Assembly: GCA_035946615.1 (NCBI GenBank) | Contig: DASYZB010000003.1 | Coordinates: 1 to 64,000 of the forward strand | Length of the DNA stretch: 64,000 bases | Source of the DNA: Verrucomicrobiia bacterium | GTDB taxonomy: Bacteria; Verrucomicrobiota; Verrucomicrobiia; Limisphaerales; UBA8199 | Direction of reading: 5' to 3' | The notes under the pieces: generated by a model | What the model saw: the letters and a program-made list of their open reading frames with translations, nothing else | Database searches by the model: none | What the model was told of the DNA's origin: nothing | Shown here: in pieces, positions 16,924-62,553 of the stretch | Layout of the letters: each line of letters opens with the position of its first letter | Numbering within the stretch: position 1 is the first letter of the stretch | Made by a program: the position numbers and the translations under genes

Positions 16924-16979
16924 GTGGCTCGGGCATCTTGCCCGAGTTCCCACGGGCGAGACGCCCGTGCCACGGCGTG
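16924..16979. repeat. Twin perfect hairpins between convergent genes
   Basis: Two adjacent perfect stems: CTCGGGCA (16928-16935) with TGCCCGAG (16939-16946), and CACGGGCG (16951-16958) with CGCCCGTG (16962-16969), each with a three-base loop. They lie between the convergent GH27 and Gfo/Idh genes, so they may end both transcripts. The paired layout also resembles a REP doublet. No long U tract follows either stem. Confidence 0.65.
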
Positions 16980-16981
16980 GC

Positions 16982-18343
16982 TCACGCAAACTTGTACTGG
17001 CCCGGGATGGCCACCTCGGGGAAGGGCAGGCTTCCCATCTCGTATTTTTCCGGTCCCAAGCGGGTGGTGGAATTAAGGACTTCCTCCGCTTCAATCGAGC
17101 GCCCGCTATAGGCGGACTCGCGCCCCATGATCCCGGTGAGGGTGCTTTCGGCGACGTTTTTGGCCTCGTTCAGCGGGGCGCCGGCGCGAATGCTGGCCAT
17201 CAGGTCCTGGTGCTCCTGCTGGTAGGGATTGACGTCGCGTTCGCGAAATCTCCAGAGCACCTGCTTGTTGCTGGCCCGTATCCAGTCCTTGCAATTGCTC
17301 GAACCTTTGGTCCCCACAACGGCCTCCTCGACCTTGCCTTCACAGCCATTCATTTGGCGGCACTGGCTGAACATCCGCGCGCCGTTGGCATATTCGAACT
17401 CGACGGCAAAATGATCGTAGATGTGGCCGTAATTCTTGTTGGGCCGCGCCTGCCGGCCTCCCAAGGCCAGGGCTTTGATGGGGTGCGCACCCATGACCCA
17501 GTTGATCACGTCCAGGTTATGGACGTGTTGCTCAACGATGTGGTCGCCCCCCAGCCAGGTGAAATAATTCCAATTGCGCAGTTGCCACTCCATATCGCTC
17601 CAGCCGGGCTGACGTTCCACCACCCAGATCACGCCCCCGTCCCAATACGCGCGGGCAGCCAGAATCTCGCCCACCGCGCCATCCTGGAGCCGTTTGATTG
17701 CCTCCCCATAGCTGCGCATGTGGCGCCGCTGGGTGCCCGCTACGATGCCCAGGTTCTTCTGCTTTGCCAATTCCCCGGCCTCGAGCACCAACCGGATGCC
17801 GGGGCCATCGACCGCGCATGGCTTCTCGGCGAAAACGTTCTTCCCCGCTTCGATGGCAGCCTTGAGGTGCGTGGCGCGGAAGTGCGGGGGCGTGGCCAGG
17901 ATGACATAGTTGATGTCCGGGACCGCCAGCAGCTTTTGGTAGGCATCAAAGCCCGTGAAGCACATCTCATCGGGGATGGACATGTTGAGCTTTTGGAGTT
18001 GCTCGCGGCAGCCGTTGAGGCGATCAGGAAACACGTCACCCAGGGCAACAACTTTTACGTTTTTGCTCGCCGCGCTGGCATCGGCTTTGATGTTCTCGGT
18101 GTGGTAACCCGCCTGGGGATAGTTCACGTCGGTCGCGGCGCCCAGGGCATCGGCCACAGCGCCGGTCCCGCGTCCGCCGCAGCCGATGAGACCGATGCGG
18201 ATTGGGTCGTCAGGCGCGGCATGGCCCGTGATGACAAAAGGCATCTGCGCCAAAGCCGCAGCGCCGGCGGCGGCGAGTGAGGAGTTCTTCAGGAACTGAC
18301 GTCGTGAAACTGGATCGAGTGGATTGGAATGGCTGGATTTCAT
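16982..18343 (-). CDS. Tat-exported Gfo/Idh/MocA family oxidoreductase
   Basis: A 453-residue NAD(P)-dependent oxidoreductase. A Tat signal (SRRQFLKNSSLAAAGAAALAQ) precedes the Rossmann fold, with dinucleotide motif GLIGCGGRGTGAV and the catalytic EKP motif in FAEKPCAVD. The C-terminal alpha/beta domain carries GGDHIVEQHVHNLDVINW, the substrate-site pattern of this branch. These periplasmic enzymes are thought to oxidise or rearrange sugars or cyclitols with tightly bound cofactor. The ATG at 18343 gives a normal Tat n-region; the frame is open to 18367. It is convergent with GH27; a 365-base region separates it from the divergent DUF6580-like gene. Substrate unknown. Confidence 0.9.
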   Translation of the reverse strand: MKSSHSNPLDPVSRRQFLKNSSLAAAGAAALAQMPFVITGHAAPDDPIRIGLIGCGGRGTGAVADALGAATDVNYPQAGYHTENIKADASAASKNVKVVALGDVFPDRLNGCREQLQKLNMSIPDEMCFTGFDAYQKLLAVPDINYVILATPPHFRATHLKAAIEAGKNVFAEKPCAVDGPGIRLVLEAGELAKQKNLGIVAGTQRRHMRSYGEAIKRLQDGAVGEILAARAYWDGGVIWVVERQPGWSDMEWQLRNWNYFTWLGGDHIVEQHVHNLDVINWVMGAHPIKALALGGRQARPNKNYGHIYDHFAVEFEYANGARMFSQCRQMNGCEGKVEEAVVGTKGSSNCKDWIRASNKQVLWRFRERDVNPYQQEHQDLMASIRAGAPLNEAKNVAESTLTGIMGRESAYSGRSIEAEEVLNSTTRLGPEKYEMGSLPFPEVAIPGQYKFA

Positions 18344-18557
18344 ATAAGCTCTTGAGTTGGGTCTCAACAGTCATTTGGCAACGCCGGTGGAATGCAGGCG
18401 CCGGCTGAGGCGAATCCTAAAGCAACCCTCGCGGAAAACCAGCTTAATCTGGCCTGGTTTAAAAAATCGAATATAAGTCTCGAGGCGGCGATTTCCCCAA
18501 GGCCGCTTACGAGGAGGGCCCGTCTGGCGCCGGTAACGCCCCCTCGGCGGGCGAGTG

Positions 18558-24380: not shown

Positions 24381-27140
24381 TCAACAATTGAGACGTGGCC
24401 CCGCTGCCACCGTTTCACTATGAAAATGGCGCACCACGAAGTAAGGCTGGTTAGCGAGATTAGAGGCGAATCCGGGATACAGCGATGAGTTTTGGGCGTC
24501 CTGCCGTATCTCGAAGTAATATTGGAGCGGGTATGGCGAATTCGTGTAAGCCGCCGGGATGGTGGCGCCGAAGTGATTCCCTTCCGCTTGCATAAAGACC
24601 CTCTCGAATCGCTCACCATGGTTCACGTGGCGATAGTAGAGGCGAACGGCCTGGGATGACCTTTGCAATATTAACTCTATCTCGAGCGGTTGGCCGGCGC
24701 GGAAGCGAGCCGGCGGCGAATGACGGCAAACAACAATGGGTCGCCGCGGTCGGTCCAGGATTTCCTGGATGCACAATCGAATGTGCTCCGATCCAATGGC
24801 GTTGCCAGCCTCTCCGCTCGTTTGCTCCAGCCGCTTCTCCAATAAAGCGATGTCGTCGTCAATGGCGGGCAGCCGGTCGAGCCAATGGCCGCGCAAATGG
24901 GGTAGCTCGCCCACGGTCACATCAGCTTGATAAACGTTGCGCGCTTGCTCTGCCAGTTCGGCCCATGCGTTGCGGGCGCGGCGATATACCCTTATGCATT
25001 CAATCAGGGAAGCGCGATCACCGCTTTGTTCGAACAATCCGTAGAGAACACCCGAGCGAAACTTCGCGCCGAAAAATCGCCCAAGTCCGATTTGGATTTT
25101 CAAGTCAACCACCATGCGTCGATATTCCGCTGTGTTGTTGTTCCTAACCTTACTTTCGGCCAGCGCGAGGTTTTTCGCTGCAGCTTCGGCGTAATCTTCG
25201 ATCCATCGCGCGACTTCGATTGGAGTGTATTTCCCGCTGTGTTCGCCTTTGAGCAATTCGCCGGCAAAATCATTGATGCGCAGGAATAATTGCGGGTCCA
25301 GCGGGCTCACGTTGCCAAACACCTTCGGCGCAGGGCTGTCACCATACGGGCTAGGGCGGCCAGCATCGATGAGCGAGTGGTTAAAATACATCTCCGGCCA
25401 GTAACTGTTGTTTCCTGCGGAAGGCGCGTGGGCGGTGGTGATAATGGGCAGGATGCGGCTGGCGTTTGCCAATGCGAGTTCCACTGCCTTGGCCCCTTTT
25501 GCAAAAGTCTTTCGCAACATCCGCTGCCAAATGTCCGGGGCGCTTTCAGGGTTATACATCAAACGTCCCCACAGCCTCAGCGTATAAAGGTATTTTTCCC
25601 AGTCCCAGCGCGGCTTGAGGGACACCTCAGCGTAGGCGCAGCGGCCACCGGGGATGCCTGAGCCTCGGCGACCCTTGAAAGTGAGGGGCTCCATGATTTC
25701 AACACCAGCGCTGCCGCAAAAGCTAAAGGCCCTGCTGTGGGCAGCGGCAGTCACTGGGTCGCCCCACAAGAGCAGCCGTTGCGTCCCCGGCCAGATGCGA
25801 TACATCACCGTATAGCGGCGATTTTCCTTGAGCAGGTCGCCGTAACCATACCGAAGAAAACTGCGCGACCCGCTGCTCAGTTTCATTAAACCCGAACCCT
25901 CTCTACCGGGCCGAGGCCGCTCCAGTGCCCGGATTTCGGTCTGATGATAAGGCATTCCAAGGTGCTCGGCCCAGTACTTCGGCGCGACATCTACGGCCAT
26001 CCCCGTAGCCAGCGCCGAGTCAATCATCGTTTCATCGATCCCTTTGGCGTGCAGGTCAATTTCCACCCTGCGGCCGCATTTGGCCACTCCCTCAAAAACC
26101 ATACGCCAAAAATCGTAACTGCCCTCGGGAACCCCGCTTTCACCATGGATGCGGAATGTAATGGCGCTGATGGCGGGGCAGGCCCTCAACAGCGCCAGCA
26201 CCGCGTCCCGGCAATAAGGGCCGTGGTTTTGTGCTGACAATCCGGCAATTCGGTAGTTTGCCCGCGGACTGCTGGACCAGTCATAGCCGTGCATCCAGAT
26301 GCCCAATTGGAATTGCAGGCCGCGCGCAACGGTTTCCTCGCTGATGAACTTGAGCATCTCCAAATTGCCGTCGCGCTCAGCATCCGGCAATTCAGGCACT
26401 CGCACATCGTATCCTGGAACGGATAGCAGAAACGGGTACGCGAATAAAAAGTAGGCATCGGTCACGTCTCGTAAAAAATCGTAACCGATGCCGAGGCTGA
26501 GATTGAAGCGGTTAAAGCGTTGAGTCGCCAGCATGGTCAGATAGCGCGGCCACATCTCCCGATCATTGAACCACGGCTTGTCTTCAACTTCGCTGACGAA
26601 AGCCCGGGCGATGCTGCGAATGCGATTGGCGGGCTGTTCCACCGTCCGTTGGATGTTGCCCAACTCATCGAGGGGAGCGACGGCGAAGTTGACGCGGTCC
26701 GCAAGTTCCAGGGCCGCATAAACCAGTCCGCGCACATCCGATCCTGTCGCCAGCACAAACCGACGGTCACCCATCTTGCCGCGCGCCACAGCGACGGCTT
26801 CCGGAACATCCGCCAACGAAATACCCGTTGCAGCCAGCGCCTGCTTTCCGCTGCTCGAACCAGCAGTAGCGACAATGACGCAATCCCAGCCGGCGGGCGC
26901 CTGTTCCAAGCGGTGAAAAATTTCCGCCGCCGCCCCTCGGCTTCTAAGGGAAACTAGCAATTCCTCTGCCACCCACTGAACGGCTTTTTGTTTGGCCTCT
27001 TCCGCATCGAGAACAATAGCAACGCCCCTGGCTTTCCCTCGGGCGGATAGAGTTCCGGGAAACAGACTAACTGCGGCCACTGCTGCGGAAGCTGTTGCCG
27101 TGGTCCTAAGAAAATCGCGGCGCGAATTTTTTGCAATCAT
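24381..27140 (-). CDS. Large Tat-exported protein of unrecognised family, possibly glycoside hydrolase-like
   Basis: A 919-residue protein with a Tat signal (RRDFLRTTATASAAVAAVSL). Residues about 35-160 look like an alpha/beta N-terminal domain seen in some glycosidases (for example VATAGSSSGKQAL and DVRGLVYAALELADRV). A middle region (about 180-560) has segments suggestive of a TIM barrel: RFNRFNLSLGIGYDF, FQLGIWMHGYDW, SAITFRIHGESG, RVEIDLHAKGID, YTVMYRIWPGTQRLLLWGDP. A helical region and a beta-rich end follow (FRAGQPLEIELILQ...YYFEIRQDA). Acidic residues near the strand ends fit a hydrolase, but catalytic residues cannot be assigned with confidence. It is monocistronic. Confidence 0.8.
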   Translation of the reverse strand: MIAKNSRRDFLRTTATASAAVAAVSLFPGTLSARGKARGVAIVLDAEEAKQKAVQWVAEELLVSLRSRGAAAEIFHRLEQAPAGWDCVIVATAGSSSGKQALAATGISLADVPEAVAVARGKMGDRRFVLATGSDVRGLVYAALELADRVNFAVAPLDELGNIQRTVEQPANRIRSIARAFVSEVEDKPWFNDREMWPRYLTMLATQRFNRFNLSLGIGYDFLRDVTDAYFLFAYPFLLSVPGYDVRVPELPDAERDGNLEMLKFISEETVARGLQFQLGIWMHGYDWSSSPRANYRIAGLSAQNHGPYCRDAVLALLRACPAISAITFRIHGESGVPEGSYDFWRMVFEGVAKCGRRVEIDLHAKGIDETMIDSALATGMAVDVAPKYWAEHLGMPYHQTEIRALERPRPGREGSGLMKLSSGSRSFLRYGYGDLLKENRRYTVMYRIWPGTQRLLLWGDPVTAAAHSRAFSFCGSAGVEIMEPLTFKGRRGSGIPGGRCAYAEVSLKPRWDWEKYLYTLRLWGRLMYNPESAPDIWQRMLRKTFAKGAKAVELALANASRILPIITTAHAPSAGNNSYWPEMYFNHSLIDAGRPSPYGDSPAPKVFGNVSPLDPQLFLRINDFAGELLKGEHSGKYTPIEVARWIEDYAEAAAKNLALAESKVRNNNTAEYRRMVVDLKIQIGLGRFFGAKFRSGVLYGLFEQSGDRASLIECIRVYRRARNAWAELAEQARNVYQADVTVGELPHLRGHWLDRLPAIDDDIALLEKRLEQTSGEAGNAIGSEHIRLCIQEILDRPRRPIVVCRHSPPARFRAGQPLEIELILQRSSQAVRLYYRHVNHGERFERVFMQAEGNHFGATIPAAYTNSPYPLQYYFEIRQDAQNSSLYPGFASNLANQPYFVVRHFHSETVAAGPRLNC

Positions 27141-27224
27141 GTCAACGGATCCTCTTGGATTGAAGTGCCGAACTATCTCTATTTGGCAGCCGAACCCTCA
27201 CTTTGAATTGTCTGTGCAATGAGC

Positions 27225-56804: not shown

Positions 56805-58037
56805 ATGAATCCGGCCAAGGCTTGCATCCTGACAATCAATGGCGGCTCGTCGAGCATCAAGTTTGCTCTGTTCGAGGCGGCTCAGGGATTGCGCCGGGTT
56901 CTGGAGGGGAGAATCGAACGCATCGGGCTTGAGGACCCGCGGTTTCGTGTCAAAGGGCCAACCGGCGCTGATTCCTTCACCCGCGTCGTAAAGGCCCCGG
57001 ACCATCGGGCAGCAGTCGGGGTGTTGATGGATTGGGTTGAACAAAAGATGACGAAATCGGGCCTGGCCGCTATTGGCCATCGAGTGGTTCACGGAGGGCC
57101 AAACTACACACAACCCCAACGCATCACCCCTGAATTGGTCCAGGCCTTGCATCAGCTCGAACCATTCGATCCGGAACACCTGCCCGAAGAAACTCTCCTG
57201 ACAGAGGCCTTTCAGGAGCGGTTTCCCGATGTGCCCCAAATCGCCTGTTTCGATACGGTCTTCCACCACGACCTGCCGCCCGTGGCGCGTCTGCTGGCTA
57301 TCCCGCGAGGCTACGCAGCCAAAGGAGTCCGCCGCTATGGATTTCACGGTTTATCCTATGCCTATCTCCTCGAAGAACTGGCGCGTGTTGCGGGGCCTCA
57401 AATAGCCCGTGGCCGGCTGGTGCTGGCGCACCTGGGCAACGGCGCCAGCCTTGCCGCCGTTCGTGAGGGGCGCCCTGTCGATACGACCATGGGCCTGACG
57501 CCAGCCGGAGGCATCCCGATGAGCACTCGTTCAGGCGACCTGGACCCAGGGTTAGTTTGGTACTTGGCCAGGACTGAACGTCTTGACGCGCGGCATTGGA
57601 ATGAGATGGTCAATTTTCAATCCGGATTGCTGGGCATTTCTGAAACCAGTTCGGATATGCAGGACTTGCTCGAACGCGAGGGGCGGGATGTTCGGGCCGC
57701 AGACGCGGTGGCGATGTTTTGCTATCAGGTTAAAAAGTGTATTGGGGCATTCGTTGCGGCCCTGGGCGGAATCGATTGTCTGGTGTTTGCCGGCGGCATC
57801 GGTGAGAATGCCTCGGCTGTCCGCGCCCGGATTTGTCAGGGATTGGATTTTCTTGGAATCGAGCTGGACGAGCAAGAAAACGCGGCGCAGGCCGGCGTTA
57901 TTTCGAAGAAAAGCAGCCGCGCCCTCGTGCGAGTCATTCGGACCGATGAGGAATGGATGATAGCCAAAACGGCATGCGCCGTGCTGGGTATTTCGGTCTG
58001 CGCCAATGTAAAACCCGAAAGGGCACAAAACTCATGA
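56805..58037 (+). CDS. ackA: Acetate kinase
   Basis: A 410-residue enzyme that converts acetyl phosphate and ADP to acetate and ATP. Motifs in order: [60 protein letters not shown] and [10 protein letters not shown]. The ATG at 56805 starts the canonical sequence; the frame is open back to a TTG at 56763. Its TGA overlaps the xfp ATG by four bases (ATGA), so the pair is translationally coupled. The acetyl phosphate would be the product of Xfp. Confidence 0.95.
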
Positions 58038-60604
58038 AACTGAAACGGAAGGCCGCTAAAGCAACCCATCCGACGGAAAAGAGCAAAGCTTTGCATCGAA
58101 TGGTAAAAAGCCCCGAGCGATTGGAATTACCCGGGTTTGCCGGCACAAACCACGGCATTCGAGAAGGGGTTGATGAGCTGTCCGCAGGGGGCCTGGCCAA
58201 GAGCCACGGCATAAGCCGAGCCCTATTGGAGGCTGCGCCTTTATCCGCCGACCTGCTCAAAAAGATAAACGCTTATTGGCGGGCGGCAAACTACCTGTCA
58301 GTAGGGCAAATCTACCTTTACGATAACCCGCTGCTCAAGACGCCCCTGACCATAGAACATATCAAACCGAGGTTGCTTGGCCATTGGGGCACGACGCCCG
58401 GGCTGAATTTCATCTATGCGCATTTGAATCGAGTCATTAAACAAAATGATCTGAATGCCATCTTTATTGCCGGGCCGGGCCACGGCGGGCCGGGGGTGGT
58501 GGCCAACACCTATTTGGAAGGCACCTACAGCGAGCTCTATCCAAACATTTCCCAGGACGAAACCGGCTTGAAACGGCTCTTCACCCAATTCTCCTTTCCC
58601 GGGGGTATTCCCAGCCATGCGGCGCCCGAGACGCCCGGCTCGATTCATGAAGGGGGCGAACTGGGCTATTCGCTCGCTCACGCTTACGGCGCGGTTTTTG
58701 ATAATCCGGATTTGTTGGCCGTTTGTGTTGTAGGCGATGGCGAGGCCGAGACCGGTCCGCTGGCCGGGAGCTGGCATTCGAACAAGTTTCTCAACCCGGC
58801 GCATGACGGGGCGGTGCTGCCAATTCTGCATCTGAACGGCTACAAGATTGCCAACCCAACTGTTCTGGCCCGCATCAGCCACCTGGAACTTGATGAGTTG
58901 TTGGCCGGTTACGGCTATCAACCGTGGTATGTCGAGGGAGACGAGCCCGCAAAGATGCATCAACTGATGGCGGCCACACTGGACCAGGTGCTGGCGGAGA
59001 TTAAGGCAATCCAAACTCAAGCGCGCACAAGCGGGTTCACCGAGCGCCCGATGTGGCCGATGATTGTTCTGCGCAGCCCCAAGGGATGGACCGGGCCGAA
59101 GATGGTGGATGGCAAACCAGCCGAAGGCACGTGGCGCTCGCACCAGGTGCCGTTGGCGGATTTGGCCTCCAAACCGGAGCATCTCAAGCAGCTCGAAGAA
59201 TGGCTGGAAAGCTACAGGCCAGGCGAGTTGTTTGATGAAAATGGCCGGCTGCGGCCTGAACTCTGCGAGTTGGCGCCTAAAGGGGAACGCCGGATGGGCG
59301 CCAACCCCCACGCCAATGGGGGTGTGCTGCTGCGTGACCTCCGGTTGCCCGATTTCACTGAGTACGCCGTCAATGTGGCCAGCCCGGGCGCGACCCGCGA
59401 GGAAGCCACCCGTGTGATGGGGAAATTCCTGCGCGACGTGGTCAAGCTCAACGCTGACCAGCGCAACTTCCGCATTTTTGGACCTGACGAAACGGCCTCG
59501 AACCGGCTAACGGCGTTGTTCGAGGTGACCCAGCGGGTGTTCACGGGCCAGATTCTCAAGACCGACGAGCACCTTGCCCCGGACGGGCGCGTGATGGAAG
59601 TGCTCAGCGAACATCTCTGTCAGGGCTGGCTAGAAGGCTATCTCCTGACGGGCAGGCACGGGTTCTTCTCCTGTTACGAGGCCTTCATTCACATCATTGA
59701 TTCGATGTTCAACCAGCACGCCAAATGGCTCAAGGTGACCCGCCACATTCCCTGGCGGCGGCCAATTGCTTCATTGAATTACCTGCTCACGTCGCATGTC
59801 TGGCGCCAGGACCATAACGGTTTCAGTCATCAGGACCCCGGCTTCATCGATCATGTCGTCAACAAGAAGGCCGATATCATCCGCGTGTACCTGCCCCCGG
59901 ATGCCAATACGCTCCTGTCCGTGACGGACCACTGCCTGCGCAGCCGTCATTACATCAATGTCATCGTTGCCGGCAAGCAGCCGGCCCCGCAATGGCTGGA
60001 CATGGACGCCGCCATCAAACATTGCACCGCAGGCATCGGCATTTGGCCCTGGGCCAGCAACGACCAGGGTTGCGAACCAGATGTCGTCATGGCTTGCGCA
60101 GGCGACGTGCCGACTCTTGAAACCCTCGCGGCGGCGCAAATCCTTCGACAGCACTTCCCCGAACTCAGAATCCGCGTCATCAATGTGGTCGATCTCATGA
60201 CCCTTCAGCCACAGACCGAACACCCGCATGGATTGGGGGACCGGGATTTCGACGCGCTGTTCACCACCAACAAGCCAATCATCTTTGCCTACCATGGTTA
60301 CCCCTGGCTCATCCATCGGCTGACCTACCGCCGCGCCAACCACCATAACCTCCATGTCCGCGGCTACAAGGAGGAAGGGACCACCACGACACCTTTTGAC
60401 ATGGTTGTGCTAAACGAACTGGACAGATTCCACCTGGCGGGCGACGTGATTGAGCGGGTCCCCGCCCTTGGCGCCCGCGCTGCCTACGCCAAACAAGCCC
60501 TCCGCGACAAGCTCATCGAGCACAAACTTTATATCCACCGTTACGGCGAGGATATGCCCGAGGTGCGCGATTGGGAATGGGAGGGGAAAGGACAGGGCCA
60601 ATGA
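58034..60604 (+). CDS. xfp: Xylulose-5-phosphate/fructose-6-phosphate phosphoketolase
   Basis: An 856-residue thiamine-diphosphate enzyme that splits xylulose-5-P (and often fructose-6-P) into acetyl phosphate and glyceraldehyde-3-P (or erythrose-4-P). Motifs include [17 protein letters not shown], the ThDP motif [25 protein letters not shown] and YVEGDEP; later segments [20 protein letters not shown] and [18 protein letters not shown] are family hallmarks. An N-terminal stretch of about 38 residues, rich in Lys, is longer than typical. The ATG at 58034 overlaps ackA. The last codons (about GQGQ and stop) lie within the flanking repeat. Confidence 0.95.
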
Positions 60605-60739
60605 CAAGGTCAGTTCCAAACCTTTGTAGGAGACGACGTAAGGAGTCTCTGATCAGATTGTCATCTGGCCGCCTTTGGTTCACCCGGAAGTTGCTGATCA
60701 GAGACTCCTTACGTCGTCTCCTACACTCAGGAATGGCGG
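60594..60739 (-). repeat. Right inverted-repeat copy flanking ackA-xfp, with palindromic interior
   Basis: On the minus strand this reads the same as the left copy (56677-56749), except for an interior of about 73 bases between AGTCTCT and CCTACA. The interior begins and ends with mirrored arms: TGTAGGAGACGACGTAAGG with its complement, and TGATCAG with CTGATCA, around a loop of about 35 bases. It overlaps the last codons and stop of xfp. It could fold into a very long hairpin and end transcription. Confidence 0.8.
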
Positions 60740-60792
60740 CTCGTTGCTTCGACTCTGTCATTAGCCCCGAGGGAAATGATGAGGAATGAGGG

Positions 60793-62553
60793 ATGAAGCT
60801 GGACCTGCATACAAAAGTTCATTTGGTTCTGGTGGCGATGTTCGCAGGGGTGCTGCGTTCGGCGTCCGCCGCAGAGTCCGATGATTCGGCTGCCCCACAG
60901 GCGATAGCAGGGGTCGAGTTTGAGACTAACTCTAACCGTGAAGCGTTGGGCGCTTTTCCTGTCCGGATTCAAGTCGATGCGTCCAAGCCGCATGATGAAC
61001 TGAAGCCTGTCTGGCGTTTCTTTGGAGCGGATGAACCCAATTACGCCAGCATGAAGAACGGCCAGAAGTTGCTTGGTGAACTGGGCAAACTAGCCCCTCA
61101 CCGAATTTATTTTCGGGCGCATAATCTTCTGACATCCGGCGACGGCACTCCGGCGCTCAAGTGGGGTTCAACGGGCGCCTATAATGAGGACGCCCAAGGC
61201 AACCCGGTTTATCAGTGGAGAATCCTGGACGGGATTTTCGACAGCTACATCGAGCGCGGGGTCAGGCCGTATGTGGAGATCGGTTTCATGCCCCAATCCC
61301 TCTCGATCAAGCCAGAGCCCTATCAACACCACTGGGCGCCGCAGGCTCGCTACAACGCGATCTTTACGGGCTGGGCGTATCCACCCAAGGATTACCGCAA
61401 GTGGAGCGAACTGGCCTTCCAATGGACACAACACTGTATCGAAAGATACGGGCGCGCCGAGGTGGAGTCTTGGTACTGGGAGGTTTGGAACGAGCCCAAC
61501 ATTGGCTATTGGAAAGGGACACCGGAGGAATTCCTCAAGCTCCATGACTACGCCGTTGCTGGTGTGCGACGGGCGCTGCCGACAGCCCGGGTCGGCGGCC
61601 CCGACGCCGCGGGCAGCGGTGGACGCTTTATGCGCGAGTTTTTGGAGCATTGTCTGCAAGGCACGAACTACGCCACCGGCGCTACAGGAACGCCGCTGGA
61701 TTTTGTTTCATTCCACGCCAAAGGCGCTCCGAGTTATGTCAACGGCCACGTGCGCATGGGGATCGCCAATCAACTCCGCGCGCTGCGTGACGGTTTTGAA
61801 CTGATTGGGGCTTTTCCCGAATTAAAGTCCATACCCATCATTATCGGTGAATCTGACCCGGAGGGTTGCGCGGCCTGTCAGGGGCCTGCCCTGGCATACC
61901 GCAACGGGACAATGTACTCGAGCTACACGGCGGCGGTCTTCGCGCGCCACTGTGAGCTGGCCAGGCGCTATGGCGTGAATCTCGAAGGCGCTCTAACCTG
62001 GGCCTTCGAGTTCGAGGACCAGCCCTATTTCGCTGGGTTCCGTTCTCTGGCCAGCAATGGATTGGATAAACCTGTGCTCAATGTGTTTCGCATGTTCAGC
62101 CGAATGAATGGCCGGCAGCTCGATGTGCAGAGCGACCACGCTGTGGCGCTTGAAACGATGCTAAAGGACGGTGTGCGCGCCCAACCGGATGTCTCTGCGT
62201 TAGCCTGTCTCGATTCCCACAAGCTCTGCATTCTGTTGTGGCATTACCACGATGACGATGTGCCAGGCTCCCAAGCCGTTGTCCATCTTCAGGTCACCGG
62301 ACTGCCTCCATCGAGCCGCCGGGCCGGGTGCCTTCATTTCCGCATCGATGATAACCGCAGCAATGCCTTTCGCGCCTGGCAGCGGATGGGTTCTCCCCAA
62401 CAGCCCACGCCGGAACAGTATCTTCGCCTCGAAAAAGCCGGCGAACTTGCAACCATTCCTGCGCCTCCGAATGCCGGCATCAAGAATGGGGATATCACCG
62501 TGCGCCTGGACCTGCCCCGCCAGGCCGTTTCACTCCTGGAGTGGTCCTGGTAA
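60793..62553 (+). CDS. Secreted GH39-like glycoside hydrolase
   Basis: A 586-residue protein with a Sec signal and a GH39-type (clan GH-A) barrel. The acid/base is E234 in WEVWNEPN and the nucleophile candidate E353 in IIIGESDPEG; family segments include VEIGFMPQSLS and VSFHAKGAP. GH39 members are beta-xylosidases or alpha-L-iduronidases, so the substrate is likely xylose- or uronate-containing. A C-terminal beta domain starts near 470. GAGGAATGAGGG precedes the ATG at 60793. It follows the xfp-flanking repeat by about 50 bases. Confidence 0.87.
   Translation: MKLDLHTKVHLVLVAMFAGVLRSASAAESDDSAAPQAIAGVEFETNSNREALGAFPVRIQVDASKPHDELKPVWRFFGADEPNYASMKNGQKLLGELGKLAPHRIYFRAHNLLTSGDGTPALKWGSTGAYNEDAQGNPVYQWRILDGIFDSYIERGVRPYVEIGFMPQSLSIKPEPYQHHWAPQARYNAIFTGWAYPPKDYRKWSELAFQWTQHCIERYGRAEVESWYWEVWNEPNIGYWKGTPEEFLKLHDYAVAGVRRALPTARVGGPDAAGSGGRFMREFLEHCLQGTNYATGATGTPLDFVSFHAKGAPSYVNGHVRMGIANQLRALRDGFELIGAFPELKSIPIIIGESDPEGCAACQGPALAYRNGTMYSSYTAAVFARHCELARRYGVNLEGALTWAFEFEDQPYFAGFRSLASNGLDKPVLNVFRMFSRMNGRQLDVQSDHAVALETMLKDGVRAQPDVSALACLDSHKLCILLWHYHDDDVPGSQAVVHLQVTGLPPSSRRAGCLHFRIDDNRSNAFRAWQRMGSPQQPTPEQYLRLEKAGELATIPAPPNAGIKNGDITVRLDLPRQAVSLLEWSW

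Follow-up and report, generated by a model that had tools for sequence, protein, structure and literature searches.

A conserved Tat-signal protein of a Verrucomicrobial genome with a predicted GH138-like fold and the GH138 glutamate pair

Our computational comparisons showed that a conserved Tat-signal protein, encoded in the 64,000-nucleotide stretch of Verrucomicrobiia DNA analysed here as a whole (the window), combines a GH138-like predicted fold with the glutamate pair of GH138 enzymes. The protein is very probably a GH138-like hydrolase. Its substrate was graded separately: action on xylan- or arabinoxylan-type hemicellulose is predicted with about an even chance of being right, and specificity for an uronic acid is a tentative prediction. 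Our best explanation, held with somewhat less than even confidence, is a Tat-exported exo-glycosidase that would release alpha-linked uronic acid from xylan- or arabinoxylan-type glycans. The features on which this account draws were located as follows:

24381..27140, minus strand: gene of the 919-residue protein, stop codon included (open-reading-frame list and translation; relatives 49-74% identical)
27150..27155, minus strand: possible ribosome-binding sequence, purine-rich, 9 bases 5' of the ATG (by eye)
27033..27140, minus strand: Tat signal region, residues 1-36 (TIGR01409 above its cut-off)
26646..27032, minus strand: N-terminal alpha/beta domain, residues 37-165 (model secondary structure, structural alignments, NF049878 from residue 43)
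25641..26633, minus strand: predicted catalytic (beta/alpha)8 barrel, residues 170-500 (model strands and fold matches)
26139..26141, minus strand: codon of E334, which follows strand 4, corresponds to E294 of BP0997 and is proposed to be catalytic (hhalign and MAFFT)
25977..25979, minus strand: codon of K388, a Lys in all 35 aligned sequences, the GH138 rows included
25965..25967, minus strand: codon of E392, which follows strand 6, corresponds to E361 of BP0997 and is the other residue proposed to be catalytic (hhalign and MAFFT)
24816..25613, minus strand: helical domain after the barrel, residues 510-775 (model helices; within the range aligned with BP0997)
24426..24794, minus strand: C-terminal beta-sandwich, residues 783-905, with Ig/Fn3-like matches (separate model, pLDDT 84.1)
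60793..62553, plus strand: GH39 gene (Pfam Glyco_hydro_39, E 5.2e-60; the sole GH39 match in the genome at E up to 1e-10)

The length and position of the reading frame were as an earlier note on this DNA had given them, and the strand, absent from that note, is the minus strand. Relatives were encoded at 17 loci in other records, 49-74% identical in the best segment and spread over at least four phyla (Acidobacteria, Bacteroidota, Ignavibacteria and Verrucomicrobia), which confirmed on sequence grounds that the frame is far beyond chance and encodes a real protein. Fourteen of these loci aligned from about residue 1-7 to about residue 903-907, and the other three (L016, L018, L020) were partial. 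In an alignment of 16 rows, comprising the window protein and 15 of the 17 loci (L020, where a contig end cuts the gene, and L021, with masked bases, were left out), 168 positions were invariant and a further 71 nearly so. The gene was present as a single copy in its own 5.6 Mb genome, an assembly rated 96% complete, as three further matches covered the signal region only. The Tat signal reported previously was borne out: the protein begins with a twin-arginine sequence, SRRDFLR, and scored 17.8 bits against the NCBIfam model TIGR01409, above the cut-off of 16.7 for a Tat substrate. The Pfam TAT_signal model gave 18.8 bits, below its cut-off of 22.7, and TIGR01409 matched 8 of the 16 family members at E values up to 1. 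Export would proceed via the Tat pathway.

A context rich in glycan-active enzymes had also been claimed, and this was only partly the case. The window does hold a GH27-like gene and the GH39 gene, at distances of 7.5 kb and 33.7 kb, but these were the only two glycosidases among nine other window frames scanned with Pfam, and the directly adjoining genes, recognised by eye as ispF-, pheS-, pheT- and nuo-like, have a housekeeping look. A phosphoketolase gene (XFP) lies immediately 5' of the GH39 gene on the same strand (57953-62553), a pair that fits pentose use. Elsewhere in the window, at 16967-18367, two long frames overlap on opposite strands; the minus-strand frame was scanned and gave GFO/IDH/MocA oxidoreductase family matches.

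The earlier statement that the protein could be placed in no named glycosidase family agreed with the curated databases, in which neither Pfam nor NCBIfam claims it; no strong match to a known family arose at the sequence level. Pfam searches of the 16 family members returned Tat-type and chance matches only, with no family covering the window protein, and at E values up to 1 none of the 16 matched the GH67 domains, Glyco_hydro_115 or the GH20 profile. Membership of GH67, GH115 and GH20 was rejected on these absent Pfam matches, and a Pfam search of the family for GH84 was likewise negative. The sole NCBIfam enzyme match of the window protein was the alpha-D-galacturonidase model NF049878 (E 1.4e-12, from residue 43), which matched all 16 family members at E up to 1, at best 1e-18. 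The window protein scored 46.5 bits against a cut-off of 1300, and the name was rejected as a direct annotation; the cut-off is strict, since nine GH138-type proteins taken from other genomes, at 957-1060 bits, likewise fall below it. Judging by its name, and by the match between BPa0997 and rows that also match the model, NF049878 probably represents the BT0997 type. No description of the family was found in the literature covered, including PMC7939467, PMC12282258, PMC12037645 and PMC8002723, with CAZy and most subscription papers outside the scope of the search.

Profile comparison gave the same direction. A profile search of PDB sequences found only BPa0997 (GH138) to be significant, at E 1.3e-5 to 1.4e-5, the next match lying at 0.49. 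When the window family was compared with the nine GH138-type sequences by hhalign, the two aligned over 635 columns with a probability of 99.2 and an E value of 7.8e-20, and the profile of those nine proteins matched BPa0997 along its length (E 5e-294). The closest family by profile and structure comparison was therefore GH138, which the earlier note had not named among its comparison families GH67, GH115 and GH20. Its proposal of a new or divergent hydrolase was supported: the protein is tied to GH138 by its predicted fold, by the profile comparison and by two conserved glutamates at the ends of barrel strands.

The AlphaFold2 model of the window protein (pLDDT 77.5, pTM 0.82) had low confidence at residues 1-5 and 16-36, and regions with pLDDT below 50 also lay beside the presumed pocket, at 393-408 (directly after E392), 219-235, 287-293, 416-432 and 487-497. 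Eight barrel strands were assigned from the model, at residues 174-182, 211-217, 276-282, 324-330, 360-364, 383-390, 444-450 and 479-483. This alternation of strands and helices over residues 174-483, together with top structural matches that were barrel glycosidases, gave substance to the barrel-like segments seen earlier. The N-terminal domain is of the type that precedes GH138, GH67 and GH20 barrels, and nearly all of the chain alignments started within residues 36-42. The best Foldseek match was GH138 BP0997 (E 1.1e-26), whose N-terminal domain, barrel and helical domain were all present in the window model, and VIA-align 2 superposed the two with Z 22.8 over 629 residues (rmsd 3.5 A, 14% identity). 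GH138 ranked first, with GH20 and GH84 structures next; VIA-align 2 gave Z 18.8 over 489 residues (rmsd 7.6 A) for the GH20C beta-hexosaminidase 5a6j, and Z 17.7 over 531 residues (rmsd 4.5 A) for the GH67 alpha-glucuronidase (1mqr, 1k9e). GH115 was not among the 50 structural matches listed, to which we gave no weight either way. Searched alone, the C-terminal domain matched generic sandwiches only (Ig, Fn3, CBM56), weakly, the best being a Porphyromonas peptidylarginine deiminase (E 3.9e-5, query TM-score 0.54), and no function was drawn from such generic matches. The predicted architecture would thus run from the N-terminal alpha/beta domain through the (beta/alpha)8 barrel and the helical domain to the C-terminal beta-sandwich. 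Frames of about 740-840 residues at L036, L037, L038, L041 and L045 matched the helical region only (profile positions about 511-693).

Conservation at the ends of the barrel strands, a check proposed in the earlier note, singled out E334 after strand 4 and E392 after strand 6. We take E294 and E361 to be the catalytic pair of GH138 BP0997. The hhalign comparison set E334 against the Glu in CLGEA and E392 against that in KYNGES; by hand count along the printed alignment these are E294 and E361 of BPa0997. An E361S mutant of BPa0997 has been deposited in the PDB. GH138 structures are reportedly described by Labourel (2019). A MAFFT alignment of 35 rows, made separately from hhalign, consisted of 22 family rows, four rows of a sister group (sister group M) and nine GH138 rows; E334, K388 and E392 were present in all 35 (22/22, 4/4 and 9/9). 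Omitted from it were L023, which shares a contig with L005; L096 and L098, which repeat the genes of L100 and L103; the fragments L032-L035, L050, L051, L097 and L099; and the weaker groups L036-L049, L053, L058 and L067-L088. The pair is thus shown by conservation, and E334 and E392, at the ends of strands 4 and 6, would face the scissile bond and may carry out acid/base chemistry like that of E294/E361. Retention of both glutamates and K388 in 35 of 35 sequences, along with an export signal and enzymes adjoining the gene in some genomes, makes it very unlikely that catalysis has been lost and that the protein only binds or senses glycans.

The same alignment bore on a GH20- or GH84-like beta-hexosaminidase, for which the second place of those structures might speak. 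GH20 enzymes have an Asp-Glu pair after strand 4, and in one of the 22 family rows and two of the four sister rows an Asp does stand before the strand-4 Glu, which would also favour this reading. The window protein has Gly333-Glu334 at this point, and Gly precedes the strand-4 Glu in 20 of the 22 family rows. With no Pfam match to GH20 or GH84 in addition, a hexosaminidase is barely credible.

Nineteen Arg, His or Lys positions within residues 170-500 were invariant in the 16-row alignment. Those at or near strand ends (R330, H332, H364, K366, K388 and R448) would most likely hold the carboxylate of an uronic acid. R330, H332, K366 and R448 were absent from the GH138 rows, H364 and K388 were present, and H364 is Arg in sister group M; because only two of the six are common and one of these is replaced in the sister group, galacturonic acid specificity could not be transferred from GH138. 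The reaction would most likely free a terminal alpha-linked glucuronic or galacturonic acid from a xylan- or arabinoxylan-derived glycan.

In the tree, the nine GH138 rows formed one clade (SH-aLRT 100) that lay apart from the window family. Sister group M was likewise a clade (SH-aLRT 100), and the window-family rows were grouped with a low support of 68. The separation from GH138 is a very long branch, and the program warns where long branches meet, so that the deep order is loose. The family likely represents a family-level clade within a GH138 superfamily, deserving a family of its own, and it probably works like a GH138 enzyme though it lies outside GH138 by sequence. Together with Acidobacterial and Bacteroidota sequences, the window protein and L005 made up a fork of 10 rows with a support of 99. 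Members carried by other genomes of the window's order (L024-L027) lay elsewhere in the tree, which suggests that the gene may have been acquired by horizontal transfer. L103, which came from the Bacteroidota-side search, was likewise outside this fork. The sister group itself (L028-L031, 876-977 residues, from Verrucomicrobial genomes of the window's order) scored 261-415 bits against the family profile, and the two members scanned with Pfam (L028, L029) gave no match. Directly after a sister-group gene lies L107:12483-14723, whose product resembles the helical-region group by eye.

Neighbouring genes in other genomes were examined for the substrate. Of 103 neighbours listed from 15 loci, 20 were scanned with Pfam, all of them at five loci picked because by eye they looked rich in carbohydrate enzymes. 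L011 had GH67, GH43 and esterases near the family gene; L007 had GH54, GH51, GH97 and GH3; L017 and L021 each had GH8 and GH39; and L006 had a GH51-type arabinofuranosidase. The best match of the L017 GH8 was an entry named cellulase, followed by reducing-end xylose-releasing exo-oligoxylanases (Rex), and the L021 GH8 was 79% identical to the L017 protein. The window GH39 was closest to beta-xylosidases and 52-53% identical to the L017, L021 and L100 genes. The family's neighbours are, by their sequence matches, not purely xylan enzymes: NCBIfam matched the GH39 proteins weakly to alpha-1,4-L-rhamnosidase (32-37 bits, cut-off 850), and below cut-off placed the L011 GH43 closest to arabinan endo-arabinosidase, the GH51 proteins (including that of L007) closest to arabinosylfuranosidase, and one L011 esterase with xylanase/feruloyl esterase. 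A protein of 742 residues encoded upstream of the family gene at L011:7711-9936 (plus strand), 69% identical to that of L100:4658-6892 (plus strand), had neither an NCBIfam match nor a PDB sequence match; both proteins had sub-threshold Pfam matches only (GH127, GlcNAc 2-epimerase, others), and the former is possibly another unnamed hydrolase.

Since NCBIfam labelled some neighbours as arabinan- or rhamnosidase-like, we place somewhat less confidence in both the hemicellulose step and the best explanation, and somewhat more in the alternative of an exo-glycosidase for neutral sugars, such as arabinose or rhamnose side chains, in which the basic residues bind something else. Neighbours of the arabinofuranosidase families GH51, GH54 and GH43 and the weak rhamnosidase match of the GH39 proteins agree with such an enzyme, but the closest family, GH138, is a uronidase family, and the 19 invariant basic positions are likewise at odds with it, so that we consider it somewhat unlikely. 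A diverged GH138-type alpha-galacturonidase acting on pectin (rhamnogalacturonan II) would account for the nearest solved structure and the nearest NCBIfam family, both GH138 alpha-D-galacturonidases, and for the retained glutamate pair. Against it stand the separate clade on its very long branch, residues of strands 3, 4, 5 and 7 unlike those of GH138, and the lack of pectin lyase, GH28, GH78 and GH106 in the scan (E up to 1e-5) of 20 neighbour proteins from five loci (another neighbour, L100:4724-6892, had a sub-threshold Pec_lyase match, E 0.017); pectin as the substrate is therefore improbable.

For the exported uronidase that we prefer, partner enzymes would be GH39 and Rex-type GH8. GH39 was found in 9 of 12 genomes examined and within 2.2 kb of the family gene in three of the 12 (2136, 59 and 98 bases); even placement would give 0.018 such genomes. 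The chance value for the count, 6e-7, is post hoc, assumes even placement and includes two genomes in which GH39 was known before the count, only G635 being new. In tblastn searches, 22 seeds were run against 30 stretches, of which 24 carry the family gene; seven of those 24 had supplied the seeds. A seed glycosidase was present in nine of the 24 and in none of the other 15, and as seven of the nine were seed sources, only L100 and L103 were independent finds. By tblastn, seed glycosidases were absent from 9 of 11 Acidobacterial loci and from L101, L102, L104 and L105, several of these contigs being short.

At the level of whole genomes, the window's own genome contained GH10 and the one GH39, and neither GH67 nor GH115 was found at E up to 1e-10, nor GH8 at E up to 1e-5. 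Among 26 family-carrying genomes (in which G502 and G009, both holding the L005 contig, appear to be one genome counted twice), GH10 occurred in 21 and GH115 in 11. GH67 was present in 12 of 18 carrier genomes. Among 117 relatives of the window's genome it was present in eight, and in none of the six full-length carriers, which weakened GH67 co-occurrence as a marker of function. On contig 75 of G000 (L058), the own genome also encodes a further protein that matches the GH67 N-terminal domain (Pfam E 5.4e-11); in the 760 residues scanned this was the sole Pfam match at E up to 0.001.

The xylan reducing end has the sequence Xyl-Rha-GalA-Xyl. A bolder reading, speculative and rather unlikely, would make the protein the first recognised member of an undescribed GH family, sister to a second undescribed one, with a GH138 active site directed at xylan. 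It would be either an alpha-uronidase that replaces GH67/GH115 in genomes that yielded neither of them, or an alpha-galacturonidase that acts on Xyl-Rha-GalA-Xyl together with the adjoining Rex-type GH8. Whichever substrate applies, the family consists of exported proteins of about 900 residues in at least four phyla, which carry no curated Pfam or NCBIfam name, and the active-site link to GH138 together with hemicellulose clusters in some genomes allows a direct and cheap test of function. The GH138 superfamily would widen from pectin to hemicellulose, and a uronidase would suggest how xylan-degrading Verrucomicrobia with no detected GH67 or GH115 strip acidic side chains.

Of the known systems, GH138 BP0997 (6hze, 6hzf, 6hzg; BT0997 type) resembles the window protein in domain order over residues 38-776, in the barrel and helical domain, in the strand-4 and strand-6 glutamates with a K-x-x-x-E motif, and in R175 and H364. 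It differs in that structural alignment gave only 14% identity, the window family stands in its own clade, and the C-terminal beta-sandwich lies beyond the aligned range. The window protein has a Tat signal, whereas BPa0997 and the GH138 rows have, by eye, lipoprotein- or Sec-type starts, and the [FL]RxHxESG and strand-3 WxH motifs of the window family are missing in the nine GH138 rows. Sister group M shares the RxHxESG, KYWxEQ and RLW motifs and both glutamates, but is 27-30% identical, with H364 changed to Arg and an insertion after strand 3. The GH67 enzymes (1mqr, 1k9e) share the N-terminal domain and barrel; however, the window protein has no Pfam GH67 match, and a separate GH67 gene exists in those 12 of 18 carrier genomes. 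GH20C (5a6j) is likewise similar in N-terminal domain and barrel, and is set apart by the rmsd of 7.6 A, the missing GH20 profile match, and Gly-Glu rather than Asp-Glu after strand 4.
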